Shown here: positions 6-21,714 of the stretch, piece after piece
Layout of the letters: each line of letters opens with the position of its first letter
Numbering within the stretch: position 1 is the first letter of the stretch
Virus record (IMG/VR): IMGVR_UViG_3300035120_000025
Coordinates: 1 to 21,939 of that record
Reading direction: 5' to 3' (one strand)
DNA length: 21,939 bases
Source: a virus
The notes under the pieces: generated by a model
Databases searched by the model: none
What the model saw: the letters and a program-made list of their open reading frames with translations, nothing else
Told to the model about the DNA's origin: nothing
Program-made: the position numbers and the translations under genes

Positions 6-2423
6 ATGTCAGATTTTTATGATCGTGGCGATGATTTAGGTCCGACCGGAGTCGATGCAACTGACGTGTTCAACGTTGACACGAATGATGTTGGCGATCA
101 AGGTGTTGCGAAGTCAACGGAACCGGCGCCAGTTTATCGTATTTACGAAGGTAGTCGTATCGCAATAAGCTCTTCCGTTGGTAAGTTGTGGGAGAAAAAG
201 GTTACTGCTGCTATCGCTGCATACGAACAAGTTGTGATCATTTGGGATGAAGTGTTTAAGTATTACAATAACAATCAGAACAAGTCCATCGAGTCCACAC
301 GCGGACTGTTTAAGCGTGGTGACGGCACGGAAAACATTATGTTTTCCAATCTTAACATTATGTTGCCTGCGGTTTACAGCAAAAATCCCGATGTCACATG
401 TAGTACAATCGACGAAGTTGAAGAACCATTTACCAAGTCGCTCGAAAAAGTTCTCAATACTCTTATTCGAGGTCAAAACGGTCTTAATGCGAAGCCCAAG
501 ATTAAGAAGGCCGTTGGTGTCGGTTTGCTTACCAATTTTGGCGTTCTGAAACTTGACTGGACGAAGAAAAACGACTCGCGGGAGATTGCTGTTCAACAGA
601 TGCAATCGTTAACAGACGAACTTGCATCGGCGAAAACTCAAGAACAAGTCGAACTGATCTACGGCAAGCTTGAAGCACTTGAACTATCAATGGAAGTACT
701 GAAACCATCCGGCCCGTCGCTTTGTAATGTGCTTCCGCATAATCTTATCATCGATCCATATGCTGAACAGCAAGATGGCAGCGACGCGGATTGGATGGCT
801 GAACGTTGTTTCTTGTCCACAGCGATGTTGACAGAGCGTTACACTATACCGGACCCAGCGACTCAGAATGACTCAAACTCGAATAACCTTGTCGGCAACG
901 ATGGCGGTATCAAGGAAACGTCTGCAGGCGCACGTACATTGGTTTATAAGCCGACGCATAAGGCTGCATTTAACACGGCAGATGGACGGCGTGATGACGG
1001 ACTCGGTTTAGTCTTACAAGCTATCGAATCAGGGTCACAGTCAACGCATCATACCGACGACGAGCGCACGGCCTATCTCAACATGTATACGACCGAGTGT
1101 TATATTGTATGGGACAAGGTGGCACGTCGCGTTATGCTATTTCAGCGTGACGATTGGTCGTGGCCGTTGTGGGTATGGGACGATCCATTGGTGATCAGTC
1201 GATTTTTCCCGTATTTCATTATCGGTTACACGATGTCCACCGGCGGCACGGTCGCTGTAGGCGAAACTGCATACTACATGGATCAACAAGATGCGATCAA
1301 TGACATCAATCGCAAAATGAAGCGAATGCGAACGTCTGTGTTCGACTACTTTCTATATAACTCAGACATGGTGGACAGTGACCAAATCGAAAAGCTCATC
1401 AACGCCGTCCGCGGTGAAGGGTCAGGTGACGCGAAACATGTTATTGGTGTCAAAGCGGGCGAGAAGAAGGTCAGTGATCTTATTGAACCAATCGTTCCGC
1501 GGATGGATCAGTACAAGGAGTTATTTGATAAGCAGAGCCTCCTTGATGCTATCAATCGAATTACGAACACGTCTGATGCGCTTAGAGGCGTACAATTTAA
1601 AACCAACACAAATGAAGACGCTGTTAATACCTACCAAGAATCCATGAAGCTTTCCGTTGGCGCGAAGGTCGATGTTGTCGAAGACGTAGTAGCTGCAATT
1701 GCACATTCGCTTGCAGAATTGTCTGTGCAAAACTTAACACAAGACGATGTAGTCAATCTCGTCGGGCCTACATTTGCGCTTGCGTGGCGTCAAATGTCAA
1801 TGGTGGAATTTAATGGTCGGTACAGCGTTGAAATCGTAGCCGGGTCAATGGAGAAACCCAACAGTGTATTCAAGAAAAAGGAAGCCGTACAAATCGCCCA
1901 AGCTGTGGGTCAGTTTGCGCAAGCGGCTCCCGGAGCGACGCTTCAAATTATGCTTCGGGTATTGGAGCAAGCGTTTACGGAAGTTGTTATTAAGCCGGAA
2001 GACTGGCAGGCTATTACACAGGAAATGCAAGCCAAGACCGCTCAAGGCGTAGGCGCGCCACAAGGCACTGCACAAGGTCCACAATCGGTTCAGGGAGGCG
2101 CACCAGCACAACCCGGGGCACAAGGCGGTCAACCTCAACAGGGCGCACAGGGGCAAAATCCAATAGCACAGATTCTGGCAAACTTGCCACCAGAAATCAA
2201 GCAACAAGTCGTCGCAATGAAACAGCAAGGTAAAACGGATCAACAGATTCAGAGCTTCCTGTTGCAGCATGTTGCAGCACTGCATTCAGGACAAACTCAA
2301 CCGCAAGGTGCTGGTGCAGGTGCTCCGAAATTAGGAGTACCGCCGAAACCAATGGCACCGCCCGGACCAAGTGGAATGCCAGGCGCTTCACCAGGGGGCC
2401 AGAGCGTTCCCAATTTACAGTAG
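6..2423 (+). CDS. Portal protein (head-tail connector)
   Basis: This 805-residue protein is the likely portal. In the virion it would form the dodecameric ring at the capsid vertex through which DNA is packaged and ejected. The call rests on family resemblance of the N-terminal third: a stretch around residues 112-130 (ENIMFSNLNIMLPAVYSKNP) and the LLTNFGVLKLDW segment near residue 180 are typical of large podovirus portals. It also rests on its place just before a scaffold and a capsid gene. From about residue 680 to the end it is a disordered-looking Gln/Gly/Pro/Ala-rich tail, unusual in length for the family. The start is ATG at 6, and the preceding five bases match the context before the gene at 12386 (AACTCATG), so the upstream regulatory motif is probably cut by the window edge. 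A two-mismatch copy of the 13-bp repeat lies within it at 866-878. Terminase would be expected just upstream. Confidence 0.85.
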   Translation: MSDFYDRGDDLGPTGVDATDVFNVDTNDVGDQGVAKSTEPAPVYRIYEGSRIAISSSVGKLWEKKVTAAIAAYEQVVIIWDEVFKYYNNNQNKSIESTRGLFKRGDGTENIMFSNLNIMLPAVYSKNPDVTCSTIDEVEEPFTKSLEKVLNTLIRGQNGLNAKPKIKKAVGVGLLTNFGVLKLDWTKKNDSREIAVQQMQSLTDELASAKTQEQVELIYGKLEALELSMEVLKPSGPSLCNVLPHNLIIDPYAEQQDGSDADWMAERCFLSTAMLTERYTIPDPATQNDSNSNNLVGNDGGIKETSAGARTLVYKPTHKAAFNTADGRRDDGLGLVLQAIESGSQSTHHTDDERTAYLNMYTTECYIVWDKVARRVMLFQRDDWSWPLWVWDDPLVISRFFPYFIIGYTMSTGGTVAVGETAYYMDQQDAINDINRKMKRMRTSVFDYFLYNSDMVDSDQIEKLINAVRGEGSGDAKHVIGVKAGEKKVSDLIEPIVPRMDQYKELFDKQSLLDAINRITNTSDALRGVQFKTNTNEDAVNTYQESMKLSVGAKVDVVEDVVAAIAHSLAELSVQNLTQDDVVNLVGPTFALAWRQMSMVEFNGRYSVEIVAGSMEKPNSVFKKKEAVQIAQAVGQFAQAAPGATLQIMLRVLEQAFTEVVIKPEDWQAITQEMQAKTAQGVGAPQGTAQGPQSVQGGAPAQPGAQGGQPQQGAQGQNPIAQILANLPPEIKQQVVAMKQQGKTDQQIQSFLLQHVAALHSGQTQPQGAGAGAPKLGVPPKPMAPPGPSGMPGASPGGQSVPNLQ
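866..878. repeat. Degenerate copy of the 13-bp inverted repeat inside the portal gene
   Basis: GAATGACTCAAAC keeps the GACTCA core and the right half-site TCAAAC. It differs from the consensus at two left-arm positions. It is read as N-D-S-N, a different frame from the other intragenic copies, so it may be coincidental. Confidence 0.35.
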
Positions 2424-2435
2424 TTTGACTCAAAC
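2423..2435. promoter_or_regulatory. 13-bp inverted repeat, portal/scaffold junction
   Basis: GTTTGACTCAAAC is an exact consensus copy with 6-bp arms and a central C. Its first base is the last base of the portal stop codon TAG. The scaffold Shine-Dalgarno (GGAG at 2437-2440) follows at once and the start codon is 12 bases further on. This is one of the dispersed GTKTGASTCAMAC sites and a probable protein-binding site. Confidence 0.8.
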
Positions 2436-2447
2436 CGGAGATAGCAC

Positions 2448-3581
2448 ATGTCGATGACATCAGGCGAAGGCTTTTCGCAATCAAATGGCGGTATGGGTGG
2501 TCAGGGTGGTATGGATCACACTGGCGGCGACAATGGTCCTGGCTCCGAAGCCATGGATATGGTTCTCGACAATCTCGGCATGGACGAATCCGCATTTGAA
2601 CAAGGAAGCGAAAGCTTTGAAAGCGAAAGTCAAGACATCGACCAGCGGATCGAACAGCGACAGCCGACTTACCAACCGGAAGTTCAGCGACAACAGCCTG
2701 GACAACAACCGCAGCGTCAGCAGCCTCAATTCCAACCTGGACAAATTACGCAAGATGCTCGAGGAAATTTCGTCGGTCCGAACGGTCAGGTTGTTGCCCG
2801 TGCAGGTATGGAAGCACGGCTCTATACCGACAACGTTCGAGCACGTGCTCAGCTTGCGCAGGAAACTCACAGAGCGCAGGACGTAACCAATAGACTTAAT
2901 CGTGCAGTTGAGATCGGCCAAGAGCTTCACGGACGTGTCACACAACTACAAGAACAGTTACGCGACAGAAACGGTACAGGTGCGCGTCTCGGTCTTAATG
3001 ACGGAGAGCAAATTCAAGCGTTGCAACTCGCGGCTGAGGCAAAGCGCGATCCCGTTGCTACAATTCGAAAACTTCTTACTATGGCTGCAACGGCCGGTGT
3101 GGATGTATCAAAGATTGGTATAGCGCCAGGTGGCGTTGACGCAAAGTCGCTCGTCGATATCGTTCGACAGGAAATCTCGCAGGTAACTGCACCAATTCGG
3201 CAGAGAACCGAACAAGAACAAATCCAACAGCAACGTACGCAAGCTGCACAGGCTCAGCTTCGTCAAACAGAAAGTGAGGTACATGGATTCTTCAACGAGA
3301 ACCCTGGTGCTCGTCAATACATTCCCATATTTCATGCTGTACTGAGCGAACCTCAGTTTCAGAATATGTCTTTGGGGGAGGTATGGGCGAAAATTCAACT
3401 TAACATGATGCGCATGAACCAAAACAAGGGACAGCAACGCCCAAATGGTAATTCCATGCGTCGTAATCTCCCGGCAGGACGCGGAGCGCCGTTGAACTAT
3501 GGTACAAACAACGTCGCTCCGGTGAATGCCTCCTACGACCAAATCTTACGTGACACACTCGACCAACTCGGCGTGGTGTGA
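2448..3581 (+). CDS. Capsid scaffolding protein (putative)
   Basis: This 377-residue protein lies between portal and major capsid genes, the standard position of the scaffold that directs procapsid assembly and is then removed. Composition fits: a Gly/Gln-rich flexible N-terminus (residues 1-110), then long charged, Gln-rich stretches likely to form coiled coil (about 120-180 and 230-290, for example RAQLAQETHRAQDVTNRLNR). No enzyme motif and no protease signature is visible. ATG at 2448 is chosen because GGAG lies 7 bases upstream; an in-frame ATG two codons later is possible. Function is inferred from position and composition rather than from a recognised family motif. Confidence 0.7.
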   Translation: MSMTSGEGFSQSNGGMGGQGGMDHTGGDNGPGSEAMDMVLDNLGMDESAFEQGSESFESESQDIDQRIEQRQPTYQPEVQRQQPGQQPQRQQPQFQPGQITQDARGNFVGPNGQVVARAGMEARLYTDNVRARAQLAQETHRAQDVTNRLNRAVEIGQELHGRVTQLQEQLRDRNGTGARLGLNDGEQIQALQLAAEAKRDPVATIRKLLTMAATAGVDVSKIGIAPGGVDAKSLVDIVRQEISQVTAPIRQRTEQEQIQQQRTQAAQAQLRQTESEVHGFFNENPGARQYIPIFHAVLSEPQFQNMSLGEVWAKIQLNMMRMNQNKGQQRPNGNSMRRNLPAGRGAPLNYGTNNVAPVNASYDQILRDTLDQLGVV

Positions 3582-3588
3582 CTCACAC
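3576..3588. promoter_or_regulatory. 13-bp inverted repeat, scaffold/capsid junction
   Basis: GTGTGACTCACAC is an exact consensus copy and a perfect inverted repeat around a central C. It overlaps the scaffold stop codon TGA (3579-3581). AGGAG (3593-3597) and the capsid start at 3609 follow. Both arms carry the G variant of position 3, so symmetry is kept where the base changes, as expected of a dimer-binding site. Confidence 0.8.
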
Positions 3589-3608
3589 GAACAGGAGAAA
3601 GTTTCAAA

Positions 3609-4577
3609 ATGGCTACTCTCGACACGGTTGTGAATGCAATGCTCACGCGTAGTCGTGCGAAATTGATCATGGCCTCGGCCATCAGCGGCACCGTCTCGGC
3701 GTATTTGCACGCAAAAAAGCGTGTGGTCGTTGAGGACGGCGGGCCTCAGATCAGCAACCCGTTAATCACGGGCCTCAACCCGAACGTTACATCGATGCAG
3801 TATTACGATACTGTGCCGGTCAACCAGACCAACGAATTCATCACCGTGAACCACTTCATGTCACGCGTGGTTGGATCGCTGATCATTTCGGATCAGGAAG
3901 AAGATGAGAACCAAGGACGTGCGGCGATATTCAAGATCATCAAGGGCAAGATTATGGCTCTCGACGAATCTATTAGTCGCCAATTTGCTGCTTATCATAC
4001 TTCTGTGGGTGCTGGCACCGATCCTAACGGACTGGGAAATCTTATTCCTGTCGATCCTACCAGTGGTTCTGTTGGGGGTATTAGCATGGCCGCGGAGTCC
4101 CAATGGCGGACATCCGCATACGACTTCCAAGGAACACTGACGCCAGAAAACATCGAGGAAGCCTTCGATGACATCACGGAACTCGACCTTAATCGATCTA
4201 CAGACGGTCAAAGCTCACCGCAACCGTCTGTCATCTTCGCCGGTAGAAATATCTACCGAATGCACAAGGCCGCTGCCAGAGACAAGCAGCACATCGATCT
4301 ACAGGCAACCGGAACTGGCAAAAAATTGGTTAATCTTGGGATCGTTGGCACGACGCATAACGGAATCCCTCTCCTGTTCGATGAAAAACTCTCTCCCAAC
4401 GTCGCGTACTTCGTCAACGACGGATACATGACGTTGCATGTGCTTCGCGGCGTCAATATGAAGATTAAGAAGCTTGTCGCTCCGTGGTCGATGGATGCGA
4501 CCGGCCGCCGCGTAGTGTGGGAAGGTCAGCTTTGCACGTGGAGGAACTACCGAACCCACGCGTACTTGACCAACTAA
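3609..4577 (+). CDS. Major capsid protein
   Basis: This 322-residue protein is the likely major head subunit, presumably HK97-fold. Evidence is the gene order portal-scaffold-capsid, the usual size, and patterns typical of phage capsid proteins. These include an N-terminal helix region, a VNQTNEFITVNHFM segment near residue 78, a long helix followed by GAGTDPNGLGNLIP near residue 133 (the common 'GTGxxPxGL' pattern), and a C-terminal ARG-like VLRGVNMKIKKLVAPW segment. It lacks a long N-terminal delta domain, which agrees with a separate scaffold. AGGAG (3593-3597) is 11 bases from the ATG. Codon choice is richer in GC-ending codons than its neighbours, as expected for the most highly expressed virion gene. 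Confidence 0.85.
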   Translation: MATLDTVVNAMLTRSRAKLIMASAISGTVSAYLHAKKRVVVEDGGPQISNPLITGLNPNVTSMQYYDTVPVNQTNEFITVNHFMSRVVGSLIISDQEEDENQGRAAIFKIIKGKIMALDESISRQFAAYHTSVGAGTDPNGLGNLIPVDPTSGSVGGISMAAESQWRTSAYDFQGTLTPENIEEAFDDITELDLNRSTDGQSSPQPSVIFAGRNIYRMHKAAARDKQHIDLQATGTGKKLVNLGIVGTTHNGIPLLFDEKLSPNVAYFVNDGYMTLHVLRGVNMKIKKLVAPWSMDATGRRVVWEGQLCTWRNYRTHAYLTN

Positions 4578-4587
4578 CCCACATTGG

Positions 4588-4600
4588 GTTTGACTCACAC
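4588..4600. promoter_or_regulatory. 13-bp inverted repeat downstream of the capsid gene
   Basis: GTTTGACTCACAC is an exact match to GTKTGASTCAMAC, although its two arms use different variants of the degenerate base. It lies wholly between the capsid stop codon and the GGGAG Shine-Dalgarno (4604-4608) of the next gene. Confidence 0.8.
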
Positions 4601-4614
4601 TAAGGGAGTTTAAC

Positions 4615-5046: not shown

Positions 5047-5053
5047 GTCATGG
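5041..5053. promoter_or_regulatory. Degenerate 13-bp repeat overlapping a stop and a start codon
   Basis: The TGAGTCA core (5044-5050) is intact but the outer arms are poor: GAGTGA on the left and TCATGG on the right. The core's first three bases are the stop of the 4615 gene, and its last base is the A of the next ATG. It may be a decayed site or chance. Confidence 0.35.
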
Positions 5054-5739: not shown

Positions 5740-5749
5740 GAATGGACAC

Positions 5750-6522: not shown

Positions 6523-6533
6523 TGGCAATCCAA

Positions 6534-6546
6534 GTGTGAGTCAAAC
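6534..6546. promoter_or_regulatory. 13-bp inverted repeat directly before the nozzle gene start
   Basis: GTGTGAGTCAAAC is an exact consensus copy. It ends two bases before the ATG at 6549 and so occupies the space where a Shine-Dalgarno would lie. No AGGAG-like sequence is present. The arrangement is nearly identical at 12371-12386. Confidence 0.8.
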
Positions 6547-6548: not shown

Positions 6549-8954
6549 ATGCTATTTCCGAACCAAATTCTAAAGCAGCGAACGGCTAAGTCTCGTCTCA
6601 AGAGCCTCACGCTGAAAGGTTTTGGCGGAGGCTTGAACGCCGTTGACGACGAATATAGTATGGCTCCGCGGTTTGCTGTCACTCTGAAGAATTTCAGACG
6701 CGCTCCATCTGGTGGCCAACAACTACGATATGGTAGTAGTTGGTTTGCCGATGTAGCAGCTTCATTACCTGCAGGTGGAACAATTCTAGACAAGATATAC
6801 TTCAATGGCCGTTTGATTGTTGTCGCCACATCAGGGAACATCGTAACCGTTTCCGATTCAGGTGTTGTAACGACTATTTGGAGCACTGCGATTGCTGCGT
6901 TGTTGCCTGGTGCTCCGTCGGCATGGGGCTCAGCATTCACGACCGTCAACTTCGTGCCGTTTAAGGATACACTGATAATCCATAACGGTAAGGATAAGCC
7001 GCTATCGATATCTAGCGTGTTTAAGGTTACTTATTTGCAAGACCTTGCGACAGGGAGCAACGTCAATGTACCAATCGGTAAGTATGGATGCGTCGCCAGC
7101 AATTACCACTGCGTCGGTGGTATTCCTGGCAGTCCTACTACTATCTACATTACTGCAGTTGGTACAAGTGGTACATTCCCTGGTGATCCTGTCCCGAACG
7201 ATGCAATCAGCATTGACGTGGGTGCGTACGCGCCTCAAGGGGCCGTGTCAATTCGCGGAATGATCGGTTTTCGCTCGTATCTGATTATATTCTTTCAGGG
7301 TCAGACTATTCTTGTGACGCTTGGCGTATACAATGCGTCAGGTATACATTCACCTACGTTTCCTGATACGCTGCCCAAGTTCGGTCTTCTCGGGCATCGG
7401 TGTATGACATTTATCGAACAAGAATTGATCTTCGCCGGACTTGATGGTTTCAGCGACGCCAAGCGAAATCTGTTCAGTGGCTTGATTAATTCACAGCATG
7501 TCAGTGATCGTATCGAGCCGTTGTACCGATCAATTATCGGTAACTTGACCGACTTGCAACAGCTTGAACAATGCTTTATGGTTTACGATTCGCTATGGCA
7601 TGACACGATTTTGTTCAATCCGAATGGGCGTTGCCTAGTCCATACTGGCAGTACAGGATTGCATTACGATGCATGGTCAGAATTTAATTTCCCCACAAAT
7701 TGGTCATGCGCGTGTCAATCGTTCTTAGGACGTGTGTTCTACTCGACGGGCACAAAGATATTCCAGCACGGAAATGCTGTCTTTGCAAATGAGAATTATC
7801 ACGCTGATCGGATGAATGACCGTGATAAGAATTGGGCGAGAAGTACAGTATTTACGGCTGGTCAACTTGTGCGTAGTATGGTGACGAACGTCGCGTTGCA
7901 GTCTGATACATTCAACGTAGCGCCTTGGACTATTACCGCCGCGACAGTTCTATGGGCGCCCAACACGATTGATCCGCTAAATAGCAATAATGCATGGCTG
8001 CTTAAGGAAGATACTACGATTGGCTCGCAGCATAAACTGGACCAACTTGTAACAGTCGTCGCCGGTGTAACGTATACGCGATCTATTTATTTGAAGAACA
8101 ACGCTGGCAAGACTTATGTCTCGCTTCGAGCTTATTCCAATCCGACGACGGCGACTGGTGTCACTGTTAGATTTAATTTAGTCACGGGCGAGTTCGATTT
8201 ACCTACGGTTGCTGGAACAGCTACACAAAGCTATAACGCCATTCAGATGTTGAACGGTTGGTGGCGTGTGAGTCACACCATAAATATGAACAACGCCGAA
8301 ACGGGAGTGTATTTGCGTCTGTCCTTGTTGCAAGGCGATGGGTCGTCAGACGCAAGTATATATGACGGCGACGGAACGACTGGCGTAGTCATATTCGGCA
8401 ATCAGTTGGAAGCCAGCCAGAGCATGGGGGCGTACGTTCCAACTACTACGGCAGCAGTTACAGGCGACGGAGCCAAGAGCTATACTTGCAGTGTGAGTCA
8501 TACCAGCGGAACAACTTCGATGGCTGACGACATAGCAGCCAATCCTTCGTGGTGGGCGATATACAATGGTATTTCAATTCCGTTCGAGATGGAATTGCCT
8601 TGGATGTCCGGCCGTGAGCCGATGAAAATTAAGCAGTTACGTTTCGTTGCAGCAACTGCAATTGGAGTAGCTAGATTCACTGTCGAAGTCTATGTGGATG
8701 GACTCTACAAAGACGACAATGGCAACATAATGTATAATCCTGCATTGATGGTTGAGTTCGTTGGTAACTCCATGCGAGGATTTGGCTATGACGACGGTCC
8801 TTACGGCGGCGGACGTGTGGCAGACGATCCCAGGCTATGGGGATTCCCTGTCAAGTTCAAAATCCTAAAGGTTAAGGTGTTCGGAACATCTACGAAAACC
8901 TTACAGGTTAACGACTTCTCCTTCCTGTATTCAGAGGGGCAGTACAAACGATGA
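6549..8954 (+). CDS. Tail nozzle/hub protein (T7 gp12/P22 gp10-like) with an inserted carbohydrate-binding-like region
   Basis: This 801-residue protein probably forms the nozzle below the adaptor. The N-terminal part (about 1-430) shows GFGGGLNAVDDEYSMAPRFAVTLKNFR, the usual opening of this family, followed by repeated beta strands (RLIVVATSGNIVTV, LIIFFQGQTILV, ELIFAGLDGFSDAKRNLFSG) consistent with a beta-propeller. Residues about 447-641 look foreign to the fold. They start NVALQSDTFNVAPW and continue with YTRSIYLKNNAGKTYVSLRAY and NGWWRVSHTINM, the pattern of jelly-roll carbohydrate-binding modules common in tail proteins. A short Trp-containing piece (NPSWWAIYNG, near 660-670) follows, then the typical nozzle C-terminus (IKQLRF to NDFSFLYSEGQYKR). 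The start has no clear ribosome site. The end overlaps the fibre gene by ATGA. Confidence 0.75.
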   Translation: MLFPNQILKQRTAKSRLKSLTLKGFGGGLNAVDDEYSMAPRFAVTLKNFRRAPSGGQQLRYGSSWFADVAASLPAGGTILDKIYFNGRLIVVATSGNIVTVSDSGVVTTIWSTAIAALLPGAPSAWGSAFTTVNFVPFKDTLIIHNGKDKPLSISSVFKVTYLQDLATGSNVNVPIGKYGCVASNYHCVGGIPGSPTTIYITAVGTSGTFPGDPVPNDAISIDVGAYAPQGAVSIRGMIGFRSYLIIFFQGQTILVTLGVYNASGIHSPTFPDTLPKFGLLGHRCMTFIEQELIFAGLDGFSDAKRNLFSGLINSQHVSDRIEPLYRSIIGNLTDLQQLEQCFMVYDSLWHDTILFNPNGRCLVHTGSTGLHYDAWSEFNFPTNWSCACQSFLGRVFYSTGTKIFQHGNAVFANENYHADRMNDRDKNWARSTVFTAGQLVRSMVTNVALQSDTFNVAPWTITAATVLWAPNTIDPLNSNNAWLLKEDTTIGSQHKLDQLVTVVAGVTYTRSIYLKNNAGKTYVSLRAYSNPTTATGVTVRFNLVTGEFDLPTVAGTATQSYNAIQMLNGWWRVSHTINMNNAETGVYLRLSLLQGDGSSDASIYDGDGTTGVVIFGNQLEASQSMGAYVPTTTAAVTGDGAKSYTCSVSHTSGTTSMADDIAANPSWWAIYNGISIPFEMELPWMSGREPMKIKQLRFVAATAIGVARFTVEVYVDGLYKDDNGNIMYNPALMVEFVGNSMRGFGYDDGPYGGGRVADDPRLWGFPVKFKILKVKVFGTSTKTLQVNDFSFLYSEGQYKR
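8266..8278. repeat. 13-bp inverted repeat inside the nozzle gene, copy 1
   Basis: GTGTGAGTCACAC is an exact and fully symmetrical copy. It is read R-V-S-H-T at residues 573-577, inside the carbohydrate-binding-like insertion. Confidence 0.7.
8491..8503. repeat. 13-bp inverted repeat inside the nozzle gene, copy 2
   Basis: GTGTGAGTCATAC has one mismatch to the consensus. It is read S-V-S-H-T from residue 648, just after the end of the carbohydrate-binding-like insertion and in the same frame as copy 1. Confidence 0.55.
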
Positions 8955-10932: not shown

Positions 10933-11454
10933 ATGACCGACAAATCTGAAACGCGCAAAACGCACTTACGCCGATTCACCGAGACGGATATTCCTGACCT
11001 CGTGAAGGCAGCATGTGTCTTTGTTCCAATGTTGCCTAACTATAAAGGTGCATCTGTAGACCCGACTCGTATCGAATTTCTGCTTAGAAACAACCTCACG
11101 AACGACGGCGCAATTACAGTTTTTATACTTTTGAACGACGCAGAAGAGCTTGTCGGTGGCATTATGGCATACTGTGTTCCTCTTTTGTTCTCATGGGAAC
11201 TGGTCACAAACGACGTTTTTCTGTATATTGTGCCTGAATATCGGTCGATTTTGAACCTTCAGAAGCTCACTTTGGCCTATCGCGACTGGGCCATAGCACG
11301 CAGGGCGAAGCTAATTCAGGCAAGTCATACGGGAGGATTGCATGAAGAAGGAATGGAACGTTACCTCAAAAGCATAGGCTTTGAGCCTGTCGGTAAGCTT
11401 TATCATCTAAACCGCCTCAAAATGAAGCCGAGTACGACTCAAACTCAGGAGTAG
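10933..11454 (+). CDS. GNAT-family N-acetyltransferase-like protein
   Basis: This 173-residue protein has the length and order of a single GNAT domain. It has an opening strand and helix with HLRRFTETDIPDLVKAA, then a central strand pair (AITVFILLNDAEELVGGIMAYCV). The acetyl-CoA-binding region follows around residues 85-110 (SWELVTNDVFLYIVPEYRS), though the Q/RxxGxG/A loop is poorly conserved (SILNLQKL). The closing part ends GMERYLKSIGFEPVGKLYHLN, which is typical of the family. Such genes are common in the tail module of short-tailed phages, where the substrate is usually unknown; modifying a virion or host protein is possible. It starts 15 bases after the fibre gene with GAGG at 10924-10927. 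Its stop codon lies inside the ribosome site region of the next gene. Confidence 0.75.
   Translation: MTDKSETRKTHLRRFTETDIPDLVKAACVFVPMLPNYKGASVDPTRIEFLLRNNLTNDGAITVFILLNDAEELVGGIMAYCVPLLFSWELVTNDVFLYIVPEYRSILNLQKLTLAYRDWAIARRAKLIQASHTGGLHEEGMERYLKSIGFEPVGKLYHLNRLKMKPSTTQTQE
11432..11444. promoter_or_regulatory. Two-mismatch 13-bp repeat before the 11459 gene
   Basis: GTACGACTCAAAC has an intact right half-site and core but two changes in the left arm. It lies within the last codons of the acetyltransferase gene, 14 bases before the next ATG and just before AGGAG (11447-11451). This is the usual spacing for the junction copies, which supports it being a real site. Confidence 0.6.
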
Positions 11455-12370: not shown

Positions 12371-12383
12371 GTGTGAGTCAAAC
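12371..12383. promoter_or_regulatory. 13-bp inverted repeat directly before the 12386 gene
   Basis: GTGTGAGTCAAAC is an exact copy starting right after the preceding stop codon. It ends two bases before the ATG at 12386, the same layout as at 6534. No separate Shine-Dalgarno is visible. The following bases AACTCATG match the very start of the window. Confidence 0.8.
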
Positions 12384-12385: not shown

Positions 12386-13894
12386 ATGGCCAAGAAAAGC
12401 GGTTTCGGGCTGCCGAGTATCTTCGAATTAGGTCGAGGGCAGCAACAGCAGCAGCCTCAAGAACTACCGCCGCCACCCAAAGGGTACAGATACGTGCCGC
12501 TCAATGCTGCGGCACGTAACGCGCATCCTGAATTGTTACTTCCACAGGATTCGTATGCAGTCACGCCTCGCGGAACGGTTCCAGGGACCGTACCAAAGGA
12601 CGCTATAAACATCCCAGGTACTGTGGGTGGGAGTCAACGTTACCAGTACAAGTTCCCTGCACATACACCAGAAGGCATTAAAGAACGCGCAGCGGAACAT
12701 GACCGACTGCTACAACAACAACAAGAACTGCGTGGCTTAGGCGTTAAGGAAGGTGGTCAGCGCGCAACTCGTGCCGGAGGTACTTCTGGCGTTCCAGGAT
12801 TGCCTCCACCAACAACGTCAACAGGACAACCTGGACAACCCGGGGAACAGCCACACGTTCCGCTGAGTTATCAACTACCAGCAGTATTGGCAATGTACGC
12901 TGGCAATAATCCTGCGAGTGGTCAGTATTCGGATGCACTGATCAAACGTATGATGAAGGGAGACTATAACCTAGCCGAAACCGTAGGCATGGATCAACCC
13001 TTCTTGAAGACTAAAGCAGGAATAGCGTACCAGTCGAAGCATGGCTATCCGTCGTACGAAGGTGAGCCTATCGATCTCACGGATGCTGAAAGACGTGCTT
13101 CTGGATTACGGGAACAGAAATTTCTAGAGTCACAGTGGAAGGCGGAAAATCCTGATTTCATAGCTATGGGTAGCGAAAGAAATCCAACACACGCTGTAGC
13201 CACAACTGCGGATTACGAGCAGCCGTCTCCTACAATCAGCGGTCCTGAGAAGTACAAATTAGTGCCTGGGAACACGGTGCCTGTAGGGCGAAACCAGAAC
13301 CCTACATGGCTGCCGCAAGTGTTAGCCGGTTACAACGCTTCACGTATGACGATACCACGCGAATACGCACCCCCCGACACGCCTCCACGAAGTATGTCTT
13401 CATGGGTGCCGGAGATAATACGAAGGATGTACGAATCGCCTCCGGCCCCTCCGCCGTCAAATAGAATGAGCGAACAGCCCCATGCGGTTCCAGGAATGTC
13501 GGAGGCAATGCTAACTGAATTGTTATCGCGAGTCAATCGTGTAGCTGAACCCCTCCCGAGTAGCATGGCTGAGACTTCTGCACGAGCCATTAACAACAAT
13601 TTGGCGGAATACGGGATCATTCCTCGAGCAGCACAAGTACCTGTGCCAACACCAAGTGTGAGTCAAACTCCACCAGTCGTTACGCCGGAGAGCGGCAAAT
13701 CAATGATTGTGCCACAAGTATTAAAGGACATGTACGAGAAGATGAATGCTCCACCTGATCCTACGAAATTCGACCTGTCCAATCCAAAGTATAACGAACA
13801 GCGTTACGATCCGCTTATCGAAAGTAATTTGCCTGCTACTCCACAGGAAACACCGGAAGAGACACATAACAAGTTAGACGAAGAGGAACAATAG
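12386..13894 (+). CDS. Proline/glutamine-rich low-complexity protein of unknown function
   Basis: This 502-residue protein was not recognised. It is rich in Pro, Gln and Gly along its length, with poly-Gln (residues about 18-25) and Pro-rich linkers near 140-150 and 350-365. Two similar short motifs, YQLPAVLAMYAGNNPASG near 162 and WLPQVLAGYNASRM near 308, are followed by further LPQVL/PQVLKDMYE and VPEIIRRMYE variants. These repeated '[VI]PxVLxxMY' elements spaced through disordered sequence look like short helical binding motifs. No enzyme signature is seen. An internal virion or tether role is a guess from context. The start lacks a clear ribosome site. An exact copy of the 13-bp repeat lies at 13656-13668. 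Confidence 0.6.
   Translation: MAKKSGFGLPSIFELGRGQQQQQPQELPPPPKGYRYVPLNAAARNAHPELLLPQDSYAVTPRGTVPGTVPKDAINIPGTVGGSQRYQYKFPAHTPEGIKERAAEHDRLLQQQQELRGLGVKEGGQRATRAGGTSGVPGLPPPTTSTGQPGQPGEQPHVPLSYQLPAVLAMYAGNNPASGQYSDALIKRMMKGDYNLAETVGMDQPFLKTKAGIAYQSKHGYPSYEGEPIDLTDAERRASGLREQKFLESQWKAENPDFIAMGSERNPTHAVATTADYEQPSPTISGPEKYKLVPGNTVPVGRNQNPTWLPQVLAGYNASRMTIPREYAPPDTPPRSMSSWVPEIIRRMYESPPAPPPSNRMSEQPHAVPGMSEAMLTELLSRVNRVAEPLPSSMAETSARAINNNLAEYGIIPRAAQVPVPTPSVSQTPPVVTPESGKSMIVPQVLKDMYEKMNAPPDPTKFDLSNPKYNEQRYDPLIESNLPATPQETPEETHNKLDEEEQ
13656..13668. repeat. 13-bp inverted repeat inside the Pro-rich gene
   Basis: GTGTGAGTCAAAC is an exact copy, read S424-V-S-Q-T in a Pro/Thr-rich linker (VPTPSVSQTPPVVTP). 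It has the same frame and sense as the copies in the fibre gene and the 15807 gene. Confidence 0.75.
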
Positions 13895-14953: not shown

Positions 14954-14966
14954 GTTTGAGTCAAAC
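14954..14966. promoter_or_regulatory. 13-bp inverted repeat before the small-gene cluster
   Basis: GTTTGAGTCAAAC is an exact and fully symmetrical copy in the 38-base gap. A strong Shine-Dalgarno, AGGAGGT (14971-14977), and the ATG at 14982 follow. Confidence 0.8.
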
Positions 14967-15430: not shown

Positions 15431-15780
15431 ACCCTCAAATGATCATGCAAATCCTAACACAAATGGGACTGCCTCCACAGGCTGTTCAATTCGCAATACA
15501 GCAGATACAGGCTAACCCACAGCTTGTACCTATGATTTTACAGCAAATGATGGGAGGCCAGGGTGGTGGCATGGGTGGTGGTGGTGGCAGAGGGATGCCT
15601 ATGGGTGGTGGACAAATGCCTCCTGGGATGCCTCAAGGTATGCCTATGCCTCCACAGGGAATGCCACAAGGTATGCCAATGCCAGGCGGTGCTGATGAAG
15701 AAGAAGGCGAGCCTGGGCAATCCACCGAAGAAGAGCTAGCCGAAGCTCAGAAAAACATGGGTGGTGGCAAAGCTTACTAG
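15427..15780 (+). CDS. Met/Gly/Pro/Gln-rich low-complexity small protein
   Basis: This 117-residue protein has a helical N-terminus (residues 1-42, MNPQMIMQILTQMGLPPQ then AVQFAIQQIQANPQLVPMIL). A Gly-rich run (43-60) follows, then an imperfect repeat of GMPQGMPMP units (about 62-87), and an acidic C-terminus (ADEEEGEPGQSTEEELAEAQ). No family was recognised. Such Met/Pro/Gly repeats are disordered. An assembly or virion-tether role would be a guess. AAGGAGG at 15413-15419 is 7 bases upstream and the start overlaps the previous stop (ATGA). The stop codon TAG shares its last base with a copy of the 13-bp repeat. Confidence 0.6.
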   Translation: MNPQMIMQILTQMGLPPQAVQFAIQQIQANPQLVPMILQQMMGGQGGGMGGGGGRGMPMGGGQMPPGMPQGMPMPPQGMPQGMPMPGGADEEEGEPGQSTEEELAEAQKNMGGGKAY

Positions 15781-15792
15781 TTTGACTCAAAC
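15780..15792. promoter_or_regulatory. 13-bp inverted repeat before the giant gene
   Basis: GTTTGACTCAAAC is an exact symmetrical copy whose first base ends the preceding stop codon, as at 2423. AGGAG (15794-15798) and the ATG at 15807 follow. Confidence 0.8.
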
Positions 15793-15806: not shown

Positions 15807-18800
15807 ATGGCCGACGACGAAGAAGACCTGACGCAAGAGACCGAAACTCCTGATATCACTACGGACGAAGTCCCAAGTAGAGACCCGTGGAAGGATACTT
15901 CCGATACATCGGCAACCGCCCCAGTCATACCTGGGGTGGTGCCGATTGATCCTGCACGAATTGTACCTGGTGGCATTGACCGTCGGCAGTTTATTGACGA
16001 AATCAACAACAATCCTGCGTTGGTCAATAGACTAACCAGTATGGTTCACGGTGAAGTTAATCCTAAATCGTCGCTTGAGGCGCAGATTATTCAAGCCGAA
16101 AGTGCATTCAACAGAGCGCAGCATCGAGGACACTCGCTCGAACAGGCTTTATGGGACAAGCCTACGTATGGCCAGCGTGGTTATTATCCAGGTACAACGT
16201 ATGTTCCCATCACGCAGGCAGACGTAGAAAAGTTCAAGCGGGACGTACTCGATGCGGTTTTGCACGGCTCTGACCTATCGTCGCGGTATGGTGTCGGACC
16301 AATAACTGGTAATGCTTCTGGTGGTTTAGCAGGGAGACAATTTAGCTCTGGCCAACCAGGCTTTCAGATACGTTTAGCTGATGGCACAATGGAGTCGTAT
16401 TTCAATGAGGAAGGACGACGACTCAACTTGCCAAGGTTTGCTGGTAACGCTCAGCCAAACATAGAGATACTGACTCCCAGATCAACTACGACACCAAACT
16501 GGTGGGAGGAACGTGATCCAGAAGCTATATCTCCACCAATACCAGAAGGTCGTGGTCAGGAACAACGCTTCGCACCAACTGCGCCTATTGCTTCTGGCGA
16601 CGAATGGCCACCGCGTGAAACCGATTTGCCTGATGTATGGCAATCACCGAAGGCAACACCTACGCCTGGTGTGAGTCAAACTGTAAGTCAAGGTCAGGGT
16701 CTAGCTGGTGCCGTCGAATCATTTGGTTTCCTTTCGAGTAGAGGCCGCAACTTAATAACTCAAGGTCTTCATCCTGAATTTGCTAATAGACTATCTCGTG
16801 CCATTCAAGCTGCCGAGAGCGCAACCGGACAGCGTGCCGTAATCCGCGATTTGTATCGCACACCTGAAACACAAGCACAGTATCGTGCTGATTACATTAA
16901 ACGACCTGTGGCATGGGGAGGGAAAGTTTACTATCCCAATCCCAACAATCAGGGTGGACTTGCTGCCCCTCCCGGTAGTAGCGGTCACCAATCTGGTGTC
17001 AGTGCAGATATCCAACGTGGGCCAGTACTCGATTATCTGCATAGGCACGCAGGCGAATATGGCTTATCATTCTTAACTGGAAAGGCGTTTCAGCAAGACC
17101 CTGCACACATTCGCATGGCCGGTTCTGTAGGTGCCAACGTTGGCGTCGGCGGTAGAGTCGGCAGGACCGGCGAAGGTATGGCTGAGCCTCACACCGCCGA
17201 GTATGTTACAGGGTCCGATGGCAAAAAGCGATTAACATTAACAGTTTCCAAACCTTCTCCGGCTGCGCCAGACGTAGCTATACCGGCGACCGAAGCTGAA
17301 ACGGCACAAGCAGGACAGGAACAACCAGACATAGCCGCATTGCTTGAATCTTTGAAAGAGACAGCAGAGCCTGCGAAGCCGAAAGGTACTGAAAAACAGC
17401 AATACGCAGTCGTTCCGGAGACTCCACAAGCGTCGCCGACGGAACCGCTCATCGAGGAATTGAAATCTCTCCTGACCAAGAGTAAAGAAGAAGCGCCTCC
17501 GAAAGCTCCTGAATTTGGGTTTCCTGAAATACCTCAATTCAGCGAGATACCGCAGGGACATATTCCGCTGCATCCCGATGCGCATAGTGTGAAGCATGTT
17601 GTTGTTGGAGCTAATGGGCTACCGCAGACAATTTCCGCTGCCGATGTTGCTTTGTCCGGTCCTATGGTCGGCGCTAGTAAAGGCTTTGCGTTAACCCCCG
17701 AGGCAATGACGCAAGAGCCTGTAGAATATCCTGCGCCAGACCTTGCCGAAGGTGAAGCTCCCTATACAGGTGGAGTGAAACTCTACCCAGGGCATGGACC
17801 ACACCTTCAAAGCGACACACCGTTCGCTGGATGGAGTAAGCGATTCGGAGAGGAAGCTGCAAGCAACGTTAAACAAATCCTTACGCACCCTGAGGAATTG
17901 CCTGCCCCTGGTCATTTGGCTGGTGGCGCAGGATTGATAGGAATGATGCGCCAACTTCCTCCACGGATTGTAGGCGGTCGGTTCGCGAAGCCGATAACTG
18001 AAATACCTCATGGGATGCCTCCGTTGCCGGGCGCACCTAAGATAGAATTCACTCCGGAGATGGAAACTCAATACAGAGATTGGCGACGGGGCGGTGCAGC
18101 CGGACCACCTACTGAACGTACGAGATGGGCCGAACAGTTTGAGCAACGTCTTAGGGAAGAACTTTTAGGTAAAGTTGCACCTGCGTCTAGGGCATTGCCT
18201 GGCGTAGGCCAAGGATTGCCGTTAACGGCACTTCCCGCAGGAATGCCTCCATTGCCGACTGCCCAGGTAGGCCATACACCATTGACAACACCACCTGTCG
18301 GTATGCCTCCGTTGCCTGTCGCACCGCCTCAAGCACCACCCGTACGTTCTCCGGGAGGCGTTCGTGCAACACCGCCCGCGCCTCCTACGCCTCCTACGCC
18401 GCCTGCGTCCCCTATGCCGCCTACGCCTCCTGTCGGTATGACTCAAACTCCACCACCTGGTGGACGCGGATGGCTCCCGCCTGCGCCTGCACCTGTTCCT
18501 GGATACGCTGTGCGTCCTAGTGCTATCGACTTTGCCCGTAGAAGCGATGACGCAAACGCGGCCTTAGAACGATTCATGGGCCGTGCTGGTGTCAACCCAG
18601 CGGAACTGGATCGCATACGCGTGACCAACGACGTGAGCACTGGTGCGACAGCACAGCAACATGCTACGAATGCAGCTTTGAAAGGTGAGACGCACCTGCC
18701 TAATATAACTTACAGTACCCGTATGTCGTTCCCTGAAATCGAGCGTGCCGCTCAGAATCATCCTACATTCCAAGATTACATGCACGCAATGGATACCATC

Positions 18801-21701
18801 GATGACATTCGCCACGTGACTAACAATCCTGGTACTGTTGCGGGACGTGCTACACCACAAGCTGGACCTGTACGCGTGCGAGGCTTGACGATGGCCGACG
18901 CTCAGAACTTAGTACGAAACATGGAACATACCGATCCTGGACTAGTATCGTTACGTGATGCGTTCAGGGAGCATGTAGAAGAAACTCGACGCTTCCAGCA
19001 CGAAATGGGAATGATCACGGGACAAGAACATGCCGATTTGAACATGAACCATCCGAACGAAGTACCATGGAGCAAACGTGTATCTGGTGCCGAGCGTATC
19101 TACGAAGCAAATCGTGCAGACGCTAACACAGAAGCAGTTCGCGGAAACATATTCAGAAATGCCGAGGACGTGACTTCTGCCAATGTACGTGCAGCACTTA
19201 GCAATCAGGCTAGTCGTGAAGCTGCCGACGCTTTGCTTCGAACGCCTAACGGGCGTATCATCTTACGACATGTTGATCCTGAGCACTTCACATTGAATCC
19301 TGACGCAAGACCTAACCAAGTTAGTTTCAGACGCGACGGCGTAATGGAGCATTACGTAGCCGAGAATCGTAATGTTGCTGATTGGCTTAACCACGATCCT
19401 TATGGGAAAGGTGGTTGGTTCTCGCGTGCATGGAACACGTTGGCGAACGGTTACAGGCAAGGCACAACTGGTTATTTCAATCCAGTATTCGGACCAACGA
19501 CTGACATGCTGCGTAACTGGTCGATCATGCAAACTACAGTGGGACAAGCTGGCAGAGCCCCAGGATTTAGAGGCAAGATGCAAGCACTAACGGGTGCAAA
19601 TCCACTAGGCCGTCAGGCGCCAGGGCTACTGAACCTCCCGAAAGCATGGACGTTGGTTAGTGGACAAAATGCACGTATTCCCCTCGGACGTGGAAGTGTG
19701 ATCCACGCCATACCCTCACAATTAATTCCACAGCTTACAGATTACATAGCACAAGCTATTCTCCATGGCGGTAACGGATGGTTCGGTCGAACCTATGGTG
19801 GCCAAGCGATTCGTCCAGTCGCCGAAGCTATGGCACGCGCAATGGTGCGATGGCACGCCAACACTACATATGCTCGAACACAACACATGGGAGGCGTTTC
19901 TGGAAGCCGTATGACTCAAGCTGAGTCTGCTATGGAAAATGCTCGAGGTATGGGCAGCGTGATGCCGGGAGCAAACTCCGCTCTGGTACGTAGGGCTGCA
20001 CCTATTCTAAATGCTTTCAAGCATACACTGGAAGCGGGTCGCAATGCTGCGCACTTCGCATATGTTGAAGGAAATCTAGGCCGAGCACCGCTAGAACAAT
20101 TGGTTCACGAATCGAATGAATTATCAGGTAACCCTCGAACTGGTGGACGTGCTTTCATGCCAAGTGGCGCACGCGAAAGATTCGATCCTGGACCACGCGA
20201 ACCTGGTATCGGCGGAGCGATTAACTATGCTGGACGACAAGCTGCACGACCGTTCTTAACTGCATATCAAATGGCAAATGAAGCCAACAGAAAACTTCCG
20301 TTCGGAGGCATGACACAACAAGGTTGGAAAAACCGTCTGTCCAATCCATCCTCGCTGATTAATCCGTTCACGTATGTAAAGCACATAACACCTATGAAGC
20401 TTACGGCTGCTTCGTATCTTTATAATATGTGGATGGGCAAAGACCCTAATGGCAAGTCGTATATCGACCATGCAACGAATGGACAAAACCCAACAAGAGA
20501 GGCTACAACTATTTACTTTGCGAAGCCCGGCGCTCCGGTCGAAGACGGTTACCAATGGCCCATTCCACAAGAAGACGTGCTTCATAAAATGATAGTATGG
20601 GCTGCGATGCATCATATGTTTGGCGATCAACAGCATGTACGCTCGTCCCTTCGAGAAGATTTTGGGCACGCAGCACATGCGTTTATGGATGTTGCAATGT
20701 TGCCGCAGATACCGCCTGTACTGAGTGCCGCGTACGAAGCAGGAGGTGTTGCACCACCATCAAACATCGGAGGTTTTCTATCACCCCTCACAGAGGCGGC
20801 GGGACTTGGCAACTTGGCTGGTGCCGGTTCGTATGCACGCAGAGACCCACTGTATGCCAAGGATCAAAACTCAACTCTGCCCGAAAAATTGCAGCGTACG
20901 TTGTATGCACTGAACCCAGGGTTTGTAGCAGCGATGACTAAAGCTTACAGTGCTGCCGCTCACACCCCTCGCAGTGAAGACGATCCATGGGGAACATCTT
21001 GGGAAATGGCCAAGAACGCTATGGGAGCAGGTACAAGACAAATGCTAGGAACGGGGCTAGCATCAAACATAGCCGATCAACGTAACATCGCGTCTGGTAT
21101 GACGCGAGAATCGGAGAAGATGTTCGAACGTAAGAAGGTACTCGATGGATTGGTTGAATACGCCGCGAAGTATGGTACGACTGGCGAGCGTCAAATCGGT
21201 CGAGAGAAACCTTTAAGTAAAGCTGGCGAACAGATGGCACGGCAACAGGGACTTGAGCGTCTACCACGTGACATTGCAGGTTTGAGTCAACCTGAGCCTA
21301 AGAACGAATTGTATAAGATGTTCGCAAAAGACTTACTTAACCGTACGCGTAAGGATACGGTCCAGGGATACAAAACGTTGTTGGACTTCTGGAAAGATTC
21401 CACACAACAGATACAAACAATGCGACACAACGATTCAGCTAACGATCCTACATGGCAACAACAACTACAACAGCGTCCGCAGATGATGTCGTTCTTGCAA
21501 CGGCACGGTGTTGACACTACTAATCGTATAGACGTAAGGAACTACTTGGAGGGATATCGCCAGAACGTCGCCCGAACGATTAACAACAATATCGACAAGA
21601 TCGAAGCTGATTACTCACGGCGCATGGGACAACCCATTAAGTTGCAAGACCTCGATCCGCATAAGCCTTGGCATTCGAGTTTACAAGTGCCTACGCCGTG
21701 A
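15807..21701 (+). CDS. Giant virion-associated protein with peptidoglycan hydrolase domains
   Basis: This 1964-residue protein is probably packed in or under the head and ejected to open the cell wall. After an acidic start, residues about 70-150 (MVHGEVNPKSSLEAQIIQ, then FNRAQHRGHSLEQALW) resemble SleB-type cell-wall hydrolases, with E83 as candidate catalytic acid. Residues about 305-437 form an M15/VanY-type peptidase. SGHQSGVSAD gives zinc ligands H394 and D401, and DPAHIRM gives H434. Ser replaces the usual Ala before the Asp. A Pro-rich region with repeated GMPPLP (about 732-902) separates this from a long C-terminal part. There, YFNPVFGPTTDMLRN at 1223-1237 and the helical segments after it recall the large polyvalent-protein-associated regions of phage ejection proteins. 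That last match is weak. It carries four copies of the 13-bp repeat. AGGAG lies at 15794-15798. Confidence 0.75.
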   Translation: MADDEEDLTQETETPDITTDEVPSRDPWKDTSDTSATAPVIPGVVPIDPARIVPGGIDRRQFIDEINNNPALVNRLTSMVHGEVNPKSSLEAQIIQAESAFNRAQHRGHSLEQALWDKPTYGQRGYYPGTTYVPITQADVEKFKRDVLDAVLHGSDLSSRYGVGPITGNASGGLAGRQFSSGQPGFQIRLADGTMESYFNEEGRRLNLPRFAGNAQPNIEILTPRSTTTPNWWEERDPEAISPPIPEGRGQEQRFAPTAPIASGDEWPPRETDLPDVWQSPKATPTPGVSQTVSQGQGLAGAVESFGFLSSRGRNLITQGLHPEFANRLSRAIQAAESATGQRAVIRDLYRTPETQAQYRADYIKRPVAWGGKVYYPNPNNQGGLAAPPGSSGHQSGVSADIQRGPVLDYLHRHAGEYGLSFLTGKAFQQDPAHIRMAGSVGANVGVGGRVGRTGEGMAEPHTAEYVTGSDGKKRLTLTVSKPSPAAPDVAIPATEAETAQAGQEQPDIAALLESLKETAEPAKPKGTEKQQYAVVPETPQASPTEPLIEELKSLLTKSKEEAPPKAPEFGFPEIPQFSEIPQGHIPLHPDAHSVKHVVVGANGLPQTISAADVALSGPMVGASKGFALTPEAMTQEPVEYPAPDLAEGEAPYTGGVKLYPGHGPHLQSDTPFAGWSKRFGEEAASNVKQILTHPEELPAPGHLAGGAGLIGMMRQLPPRIVGGRFAKPITEIPHGMPPLPGAPKIEFTPEMETQYRDWRRGGAAGPPTERTRWAEQFEQRLREELLGKVAPASRALPGVGQGLPLTALPAGMPPLPTAQVGHTPLTTPPVGMPPLPVAPPQAPPVRSPGGVRATPPAPPTPPTPPASPMPPTPPVGMTQTPPPGGRGWLPPAPAPVPGYAVRPSAIDFARRSDDANAALERFMGRAGVNPAELDRIRVTNDVSTGATAQQHATNAALKGETHLPNITYSTRMSFPEIERAAQNHPTFQDYMHAMDTIDDIRHVTNNPGTVAGRATPQAGPVRVRGLTMADAQNLVRNMEHTDPGLVSLRDAFREHVEETRRFQHEMGMITGQEHADLNMNHPNEVPWSKRVSGAERIYEANRADANTEAVRGNIFRNAEDVTSANVRAALSNQASREAADALLRTPNGRIILRHVDPEHFTLNPDARPNQVSFRRDGVMEHYVAENRNVADWLNHDPYGKGGWFSRAWNTLANGYRQGTTGYFNPVFGPTTDMLRNWSIMQTTVGQAGRAPGFRGKMQALTGANPLGRQAPGLLNLPKAWTLVSGQNARIPLGRGSVIHAIPSQLIPQLTDYIAQAILHGGNGWFGRTYGGQAIRPVAEAMARAMVRWHANTTYARTQHMGGVSGSRMTQAESAMENARGMGSVMPGANSALVRRAAPILNAFKHTLEAGRNAAHFAYVEGNLGRAPLEQLVHESNELSGNPRTGGRAFMPSGARERFDPGPREPGIGGAINYAGRQAARPFLTAYQMANEANRKLPFGGMTQQGWKNRLSNPSSLINPFTYVKHITPMKLTAASYLYNMWMGKDPNGKSYIDHATNGQNPTREATTIYFAKPGAPVEDGYQWPIPQEDVLHKMIVWAAMHHMFGDQQHVRSSLREDFGHAAHAFMDVAMLPQIPPVLSAAYEAGGVAPPSNIGGFLSPLTEAAGLGNLAGAGSYARRDPLYAKDQNSTLPEKLQRTLYALNPGFVAAMTKAYSAAAHTPRSEDDPWGTSWEMAKNAMGAGTRQMLGTGLASNIADQRNIASGMTRESEKMFERKKVLDGLVEYAAKYGTTGERQIGREKPLSKAGEQMARQQGLERLPRDIAGLSQPEPKNELYKMFAKDLLNRTRKDTVQGYKTLLDFWKDSTQQIQTMRHNDSANDPTWQQQLQQRPQMMSFLQRHGVDTTNRIDVRNYLEGYRQNVARTINNNIDKIEADYSRRMGQPIKLQDLDPHKPWHSSLQVPTP
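16669..16681. repeat. 13-bp inverted repeat between two lysin domains
   Basis: GTGTGAGTCAAAC is an exact copy, read G288-V-S-Q-T292. It lies in the linker between the SleB-like region (ending about 150, with disordered sequence after) and the M15 domain (from about 305). Confidence 0.75.
18436..18448. repeat. One-mismatch 13-bp repeat in the Pro-rich linker
   Basis: GTATGACTCAAAC differs from the consensus at one base. It is read G877-M-T-Q-T881 inside a Pro-rich linker and keeps the reading frame of the other intragenic copies. Confidence 0.6.
19909..19921. repeat. Two-mismatch 13-bp repeat in the giant gene
   Basis: GTATGACTCAAGC has two mismatches. It is read R1368-M-T-Q-A in a helical region. 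The core is intact and the frame matches the other copies, but it may be chance. Confidence 0.35.
21280..21292. repeat. One-mismatch 13-bp repeat near the end of the giant gene
   Basis: GTTTGAGTCAACC has one mismatch in the right arm. It is read G1825-L-S-Q-P in a short linker (IAGLSQPEPKNEL). Confidence 0.55.
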
Positions 21702-21714
21702 GTTTGACTCAAAC
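21702..21714. promoter_or_regulatory. 13-bp inverted repeat between convergent genes
   Basis: GTTTGACTCAAAC is an exact copy extended to a 15-bp inverted repeat with flanking A and T. It fills the entire gap between the stop of the giant gene (21699-21701) and the stop of the minus-strand gene (complement of 21714-21716), so here it is downstream of both genes. Confidence 0.8.

Follow-up and report, generated by a model that had tools for sequence, protein, structure and literature searches.

A dispersed 13-bp palindrome as the predicted landing site of a DNA-binding protein in a family of soil phages

The operators of KorB in plasmid RK2 are dispersed 13-bp palindromes with a central G or C, and the matS sites bound by MatP are palindromic as well. 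Here, we analyze a 13-bp palindrome, GTKTGASTCAMAC, that recurs in the IMG/VR virus record IMGVR_UViG_3300035120_000025, the entire 21,939 bases of which (hereafter, the window) hold phage late genes, and in its relatives. Its copies tile the whole genome and their spelling shifts in step at dozens of places between phages, so that the palindrome is very probably bound by a protein that acts on the entire genome.

Among phages, a 17-bp repeat with dyad symmetry is present more than 30 times in each genome of the Cluster O mycobacteriophages (Corndog and relatives), and its report gives it no function; many copies are described as intergenic, about one third as lying in coding regions, and most as lying off predicted promoters, and the phages as having no integrase or parAB (PMC4351075). 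Cluster A phages (L5) have more than twenty stoperators, 13-mers that occur genome-wide in promoters and in short gaps between genes; these sites are asymmetric, aligned with the direction of transcription, and recognized by an immunity repressor that binds as a monomer (PMC9283540). In the Bacillus prophage SPbeta, a 15-bp motif, SPBRE, is bound by MrpR, with ten promoter-region targets named (PMC10516654). MatP of E. coli has a 13-bp target, matS, with 23 copies in 800 kb (PMC3330122). KorB–KorA has been described as mediating long-range silencing, and a KorB operator oligonucleotide is given in PMC11790492.

Extent, spelling, and spacing of the array

A first-pass annotation of the window listed 12 exact copies of the palindrome, and every coordinate proved correct. 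No copy appeared in 100 dinucleotide-preserving shuffles. The proposed site is real, non-chance, and two-fold symmetric; the symmetry holds except at the third base. Conservation is confined to the 13 bp, with no common pattern in the flanking columns. The accompanying suggestion that the arms vary to match each other failed: like arms occur in 6 of the 12 window sites against 6.2 expected under independence, and in 13 of 32 against 16.4 in G001, a fuller, near-identical record of 44,355 bases (99.8% identity over 20.4 kb and 100% over 2.2 kb of the window). Six weaker copies that had been listed are present, with one or two mismatches, and all score above the shuffle-set threshold of a genome-specific matrix in G001, although the mismatch count by itself does not prove them, since a search with up to 3 mismatches gives 27 matches in the window compared with 17.3 expected.

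The array had been described as a feature of the late operon. This restriction does not stand: G001 has 32 exact copies, the sites run through its whole genome, and the motif is found in the rest of that genome and in relatives alike. Neither refuting outcome set out in the first-pass annotation, a motif missing from the remaining genome and from close relatives or similar counts in shuffled controls, was thus observed. Relatives were sought with the major head (capsid) protein as anchor; 207 IMG/VR stretches encode a capsid relative and 80 were kept as loci, while in deposited phages the capsid relatives are just 22%–24% identical (5 records). Of the 80 loci, 72 have the exact motif (it is missing from the remaining eight, several of which are spelled differently), and so do all 22 larger records picked from the loci, for which a reversed control pattern gave 0 throughout. 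Among 13 records of 43–46.3 kb, ten have 25–36 exact copies, and three, with a differing spelling, have 1–9. Matrix hits number 34–55 per genome in the 20 records over 40 kb, G001 included; matrix seeds were picked per genome in a 12-record scan including G001 and automatically in a 25-record scan. An automatic search ranked 10-mers by over-representation, and the top one was some version of the palindrome in each of the 25 records (z 46–143); three distant phages with a related capsid (Mx8, ctMlz233, and ppBjS10J-1) had different top words, with z of just 14–18. Terminal overlaps of 77–191 nt at 99%–100% identity in nine relatives, and of 646 nt at 94% in G001, suggest circularly permuted or assembled-through complete genomes, and the nine relatives are probably complete because their ends overlap at an identity of at least 99%.

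Each genome has its own preferred spelling, and some mix third bases. Half-sites fall into the classes GTTTGA, GTGTGA, GTRYGA, and GTGTG with a WSW center (GTGTGWSW). T- and G-class phages interleave when ordered by capsid identity, which suggests that the spelling switched more than once. The central base correlates with the type of arm: in 80 of 95 mixed sites from ten relatives, C comes next after a T-type half, read on the strand of that half, and in the GTRYGA class (G017, G019, and G021) the same is true of an A-type half in 41 of 46. This correlation suggests that reading by the presumed dimer is not fully symmetric. One relative (G010; L106–L108) has a second repeated word, AATAGTCCTA, with 6 copies and z 28, which was top-listed in this relative alone of 12.

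Along the whole genome, sites fall at roughly one-kilobase steps, and their evenness exceeds random placement in 11 of 12 records, the exception being G017. Open reading frames of the relatives were called by a simple script, an error carried by the site-in-gene (951 sites), spacing, long-gene, and orientation counts; the spacing and long-gene tests cover 20 of the 25 records, those over 40 kb. Compared with a junction-aware null, in which equal numbers of sites were placed on real junctions and in coding DNA, P was at most 0.03 in 18 of the 20 records and 0.06 and 0.074 in the other two, and the coefficient of variation of spacing was 0.45–0.73 rather than 0.88–0.99. The 112 sites within genes of at least 1.2 kb lie a mean of 1057 bp from the nearest site, compared with 764 for a null of random positions within those genes (best of 300 nulls, 871), and the longest gene in each of the 20 genomes contains 1–4 sites. 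The even spacing and the distance of long-gene sites from others suggest that selection acts on DNA coverage; with intragenic sites placed where others are far off, the array has the look of DNA tiling and not of per-gene control.

Placement relative to genes

The sites and late genes of the window are as follows.

Exact sites
2423..2435: GTTTGACTCAAAC; begins with the final base of the TAG stop of the portal gene
3576..3588: GTGTGACTCACAC; provides the TGA stop of the upstream gene
4588..4600: GTTTGACTCACAC; spacer 3' of the capsid gene
6534..6546: GTGTGAGTCAAAC; next ATG 2 nt downstream
8266..8278: GTGTGAGTCACAC; within the 801-aa tail protein gene
9405..9417: GTGTGAGTCAAAC; within the 655-aa tail-fiber-like gene
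12371..12383: GTGTGAGTCAAAC; immediately 3' of a TAA stop
13656..13668: GTGTGAGTCAAAC; within the 502-aa gene
14954..14966: GTTTGAGTCAAAC; spacer
15780..15792: GTTTGACTCAAAC; first base is the last base of a stop TAG
16669..16681: GTGTGAGTCAAAC; within the 1964-aa gene
21702..21714: GTTTGACTCAAAC; fills the gap separating two convergent stop codons
Weaker sites, each above the matrix threshold in G001
866..878: GAATGACTCAAAC; 2 mismatches
8491..8503: GTGTGAGTCATAC; 1 mismatch
11432..11444: GTACGACTCAAAC; 2 mismatches, ends 7 nt 5' of a stop codon
18436..18448: GTATGACTCAAAC; 1 mismatch, within the 1964-aa gene
19909..19921: GTATGACTCAAGC; 2 mismatches, within the 1964-aa gene
21280..21292: GTTTGAGTCAACC; 1 mismatch, within the 1964-aa gene
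Late genes
P22-like portal gene: stop TAG ends at 2423
3609..4577, plus strand: major head (capsid) protein
Tail and tail-fiber genes: including those of the 801-aa tail protein and the 655-aa tail-fiber-like product
Further genes bearing sites: those of the 502-aa and 1964-aa products

The sites had been proposed to mark most late-gene junctions, one per junction. Eight of the 12 exact window sites are indeed at junctions, but four (8266, 9405, 13656, and 16669) are wholly intragenic and the array is genome-wide, and a single site per junction is not the rule, only 8 of the 16 window junctions bearing one. Spacers of at least 12 nt occur at 10 of the 16 junctions, and a site occurs in 8 of these 10 and in none of the 6 tight ones. 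The widest window junction (5740–5799), one of the two that are roomy yet siteless, contains a perfect 15-bp inverted repeat, GATATAAGAGTACGC...GCGTACTCTTATATC, with an 11-nt loop but without a T run; it may be a hairpin for RNA processing or attenuation. The four intragenic exact sites share one codon phase and read V-S-[QH]-T; chance from codon usage was rejected as their source, as synonymous-codon shuffles average 0.036 intragenic sites (at most 2 in 500).

Across the 25 records, 369 of the 951 sites lie wholly within predicted genes compared with 838 expected, and the remaining 582 do not; the site provides a TGA stop in 78 cases, and its first base closes a stop codon in 53. Persistence of sites at a given junction in relatives, raised with the original description, was found beside the capsid gene: after removal of loci with cut or identical flanks, among 70 distinct loci, 63 have a site within 70 nt on the upstream side of the gene and 52 have one at that distance on the downstream side, compared with 4.3% of random stretches. 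The major head protein is itself unusually conserved, at 82%–97% identity among 11 relatives, versus approximately 34%–77% for the terminase, portal, scaffold, and polymerase of the same phages.

Five genomes were tabulated for site density, which is highest in poorly coding bins and, in G001, between divergent gene blocks, where promoters are expected. One such region, G001:8242-10214 (L085), comprises about 2 kb of sparse predicted coding between divergent gene blocks, has many sites, and is a probable control region. The replication genes of G001 (Sak4-like, exonuclease, DNA polymerase, and nucleotide kinase) point toward the late genes and converge with them at the site at 21702–21714. As for orientation, 73 of 130 junction sites in ten T-class genomes are symmetric, and the mixed ones point 43 one way versus 14 the other (P = 1.5e-4), whereas mixed sites inside genes have the opposite bias, 10 versus 28.

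Candidate binding proteins and lifestyle

Two small proteins are candidates for binding the sites.

G001:19012-19212, outside the window: ribbon-helix-helix (RHH) candidate, 66 aa
21714..21939, minus strand (G001:23936-24187): winged-helix candidate, 83 aa; the window has the 3' part, 74 codons plus stop, and the gene runs off its end

Solely because of its modeled fold and wide presence, the RHH protein is the favored candidate binder, with the winged-helix protein second. The former was found in 19 of the 20 records over 40 kb and in 21 of 28 searched. Its model (pLDDT 86) has helices at residues 25–37 and 42–65, the strand not being assigned in the monomer, and its best fold matches are KacTA (Z 7.0), AtaTR (6.9), and TacA1 (6.7) over 50–52 residues; AmrZ, PutA, and Arc were matched as well, and so were MatP chains, at Z 4.6–5.2. 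Sequence support for the RHH assignment is weak, with Pfam TacA1 at E 0.0014 and 19 bits compared with a cut-off of 21. In the GTGTGWSW class (G020, G027, G044, and L251), the RHH strand starts with Pro, which is Thr or Ala in four sister phages; the change to Pro may be a single event. The winged-helix protein was found in 22 of 25 records, and its model (pLDDT 87) aligns best in the PDB with HxlR, MarR, and PerR (Z 10–10.5), with no PDB sequence hit below E 0.17. A 343-aa protein is likewise widespread (20 of 25 records). Co-variation of protein and motif distances, for which seven records were added and pairs with enough core proteins were used, picks no binder, an SSB-like protein ranking top. 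As for the helix-turn-helix binder suggested in the first-pass annotation, an HTH_3 repressor was rejected as the common binder: of 20 relatives, 5 gave a match, and 4 of these matches passed the cut-off.

The phages look virulent. Family searches found no tyrosine integrase in 28 records and no resolvase or ParB in 20, control genomes being positive for ParB_N in 10 of 14. From 179 listed representative proteins, 137 accessory proteins were scanned together and some of the remainder separately; no family named for lysogeny was matched among the 137, though most PHROG matches are unnamed and the L5-type repressor was not searched for. In a bacterial genome collection, two scans with fixed peptide patterns, which can miss distant relatives, confirmed no capsid relative. 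A tRNA search covering the first 20 kb of G001 yielded no clue to the host. Single members of the 137 include a protein with a Tad2-like (anti-Thoeris) domain (E 2.4e-21) and a PadR-like regulator (E 1.9e-7).

Possible roles and comparison with known systems

Starting from the number of sites, their per-genome spelling, their persistence by the capsid gene, the even tiling, and the filling of gaps in long genes, all of which are observed, we tentatively propose, with not quite even confidence, that the 13-mers are predicted sites of a dimeric, most likely phage-encoded protein and form one array of 34–55 sites per genome that silences elongation genome-wide. A dimeric phage protein would bind the 13-mers, and bound sites at approximately every kilobase would halt or slow RNA polymerase across the genome, keeping transcription low until new genome copies dilute the protein or it is displaced. 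Such action would be like that of stoperators or of a plasmid-wide repressor, without an integrase-based lysogenic cycle; the stoperator precedent cited in the first-pass annotation is apt in that the layout of the array resembles phage stoperators.

Several results weigh against this proposal. The sites are palindromes without polarity, whereas L5 stoperators as described require one (PMC9283540), family searches recognized no lysogeny genes that would need global silencing, and the sites of G017 are not evenly spaced. With regard to the binder, Foldseek gave no match for the RHH model at E ≤ 0.001, the fold match is modest (Z at most 7.0), and G026 (40 kb, 37 sites) had no RHH hit, although this record has non-overlapping ends and is perhaps incomplete. 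Partial correlation with motif distance was 0.01 for the RHH protein and 0.02 for the winged helix, compared with 0.42 for the SSB-like protein and 0.36 for the polymerase, and thus does not favor the RHH protein. The same RHH strand residues (VFRCS) also accompany different third bases, A/T/G in G031 and G in G012.

Rather than silencing, the array could be architectural, with the phage DNA folded, protected, or marked by a phage protein that recognizes the sites and acts like a nucleoid or segregation protein (MatP on matS, for instance, or a bridging protein), any effects on transcription being secondary. Even tiling, gap-filling sites within long genes, and the absence of any need for orientation are in keeping with such a protein, and MatP–matS (PMC3330122) is a precedent, MatP chains being among the fold matches of the RHH model (see above). 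However, sites are densest in the poorly coding bins of the five tabulated genomes, in G001 where promoters are expected, matS is absent from the window, and no ParB was found in 20 records, and we regard this possibility as somewhat unlikely, while noting that elongation silencing and an architectural role may be one and the same. It is distinctly unlikely that the sites are immunity-repressor operators, that is, strict stoperators, of a temperate or plasmid-prophage phage: their number, density, 13-bp length, and preference for short spacers are as described for Cluster A stoperators, but the sites are symmetric, the 28 records yielded no tyrosine integrase and 20 no resolvase or ParB, the two pattern-based scans of bacterial genomes confirmed no capsid relative, and no lysogeny-named family was matched among the 137 accessory proteins, most PHROG matches of which are unnamed. 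Binding by a host protein, with spelling drift following the host species, would be in line with the divergence of neither phage candidate standing out; yet dozens of sites would then have to be kept for a foreign factor, and we consider this quite improbable.

An RNA-level element, promoter, or terminator is hardly credible, and no clear link of the sites to promoters, terminators, or RNA structure was seen. Symmetric versions are able to form a 5-bp hairpin (−0.7 and −3.2 kcal/mol), but two mixed-arm 13-mers that were tested gave no RNA fold (0 kcal/mol), mixed arms occurring in 6 of the 12 window sites; terminator-like hits in 2000–21939 numbered 22 compared with 17.8 expected, none on an exact site, and there was no Rfam hit. 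The RNA hairpin and terminator readings were rejected on these grounds. The promoter reading is disfavored and has at most slight support, the best downstream −10 match lying slightly above shifted controls (mean 2.80 versus 2.73 of 6, 1901 orientations), whereas promoter-like hits in 2000–21939 numbered 15 compared with 21 in shuffles. CcrM-type GANTC methylation is likewise disfavored as the cause, with 1%–35% of GANTC within the motif in 12 genomes and GANTC in only 1 of 40 sites of G020. Outside the motif, GANTC occurs at about half the mononucleotide expectation in G011, G012, G016, and G020.

A bolder version of the proposal, which we consider doubtful, is that of a virulent lineage whose own DNA would be loaded at approximately every kilobase with sequence-specific "chromatin", the tiling itself being selected and the 34–55 sites being rewritten together when the binder changes taste. 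If so, the array could serve as a self label for phage DNA, or it could maintain silence until replication titrates the protein. The family makes it directly testable why dimer sites arrayed over the entire genome are needed by a phage in which no lysogeny genes are known, and it offers a natural series for joint change of a protein and dozens of its sites.

Among known systems, the KorB system differs in that no ParB-family protein was found in 20 relatives of the present phage, and the KorB operator sequence has 0 window matches with one mismatch. The array is like MatP–matS in having a 13-bp target repeated over a DNA domain, and unlike it in that matS belongs to a bacterial chromosome, at far lower density and with a different sequence; allowing one mismatch, the matS consensus has 0 window matches, as does the L5 stoperator consensus. 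SPBRE is similar in that copies of one element recur in several intergenic regions of a phage genome and share a single master regulator as their binder; that system differs in being temperate and in having a repressor of tyrosine-recombinase fold. The Cluster A stoperators, in the features described for them, are matched in the 13-bp length, in the number of more than twenty sites across the genome, and in favoring short spacers (582 of the 951 sites are not wholly intragenic), and differ from the present sites, which are two-fold symmetric. A text search for six exact 13-mers returned no phage paper by title, and in the literature that we found Cluster O is the only report of dispersed palindromes in non-integrating phages. 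With Cluster O, as far as its report describes the repeats, the present family shares about 30 or more dyad-symmetric copies (34–55 here) throughout the genome of a non-integrating phage, while the sequence and arm spacing of TGTTCGG-N3-CCGAACA differ, that repeat having 0 window matches at up to 2 mismatches. Compared with that case, the family contributes a signal of tiling, several classes of spelling, diverged genomes numbering in the dozens, and two candidate proteins that are both small and conserved. Cluster O, in that account, comprises five closely related phages, whereas the family described here is more diverged, with a drifting spelling, a test of evenness, and conserved candidate binders.

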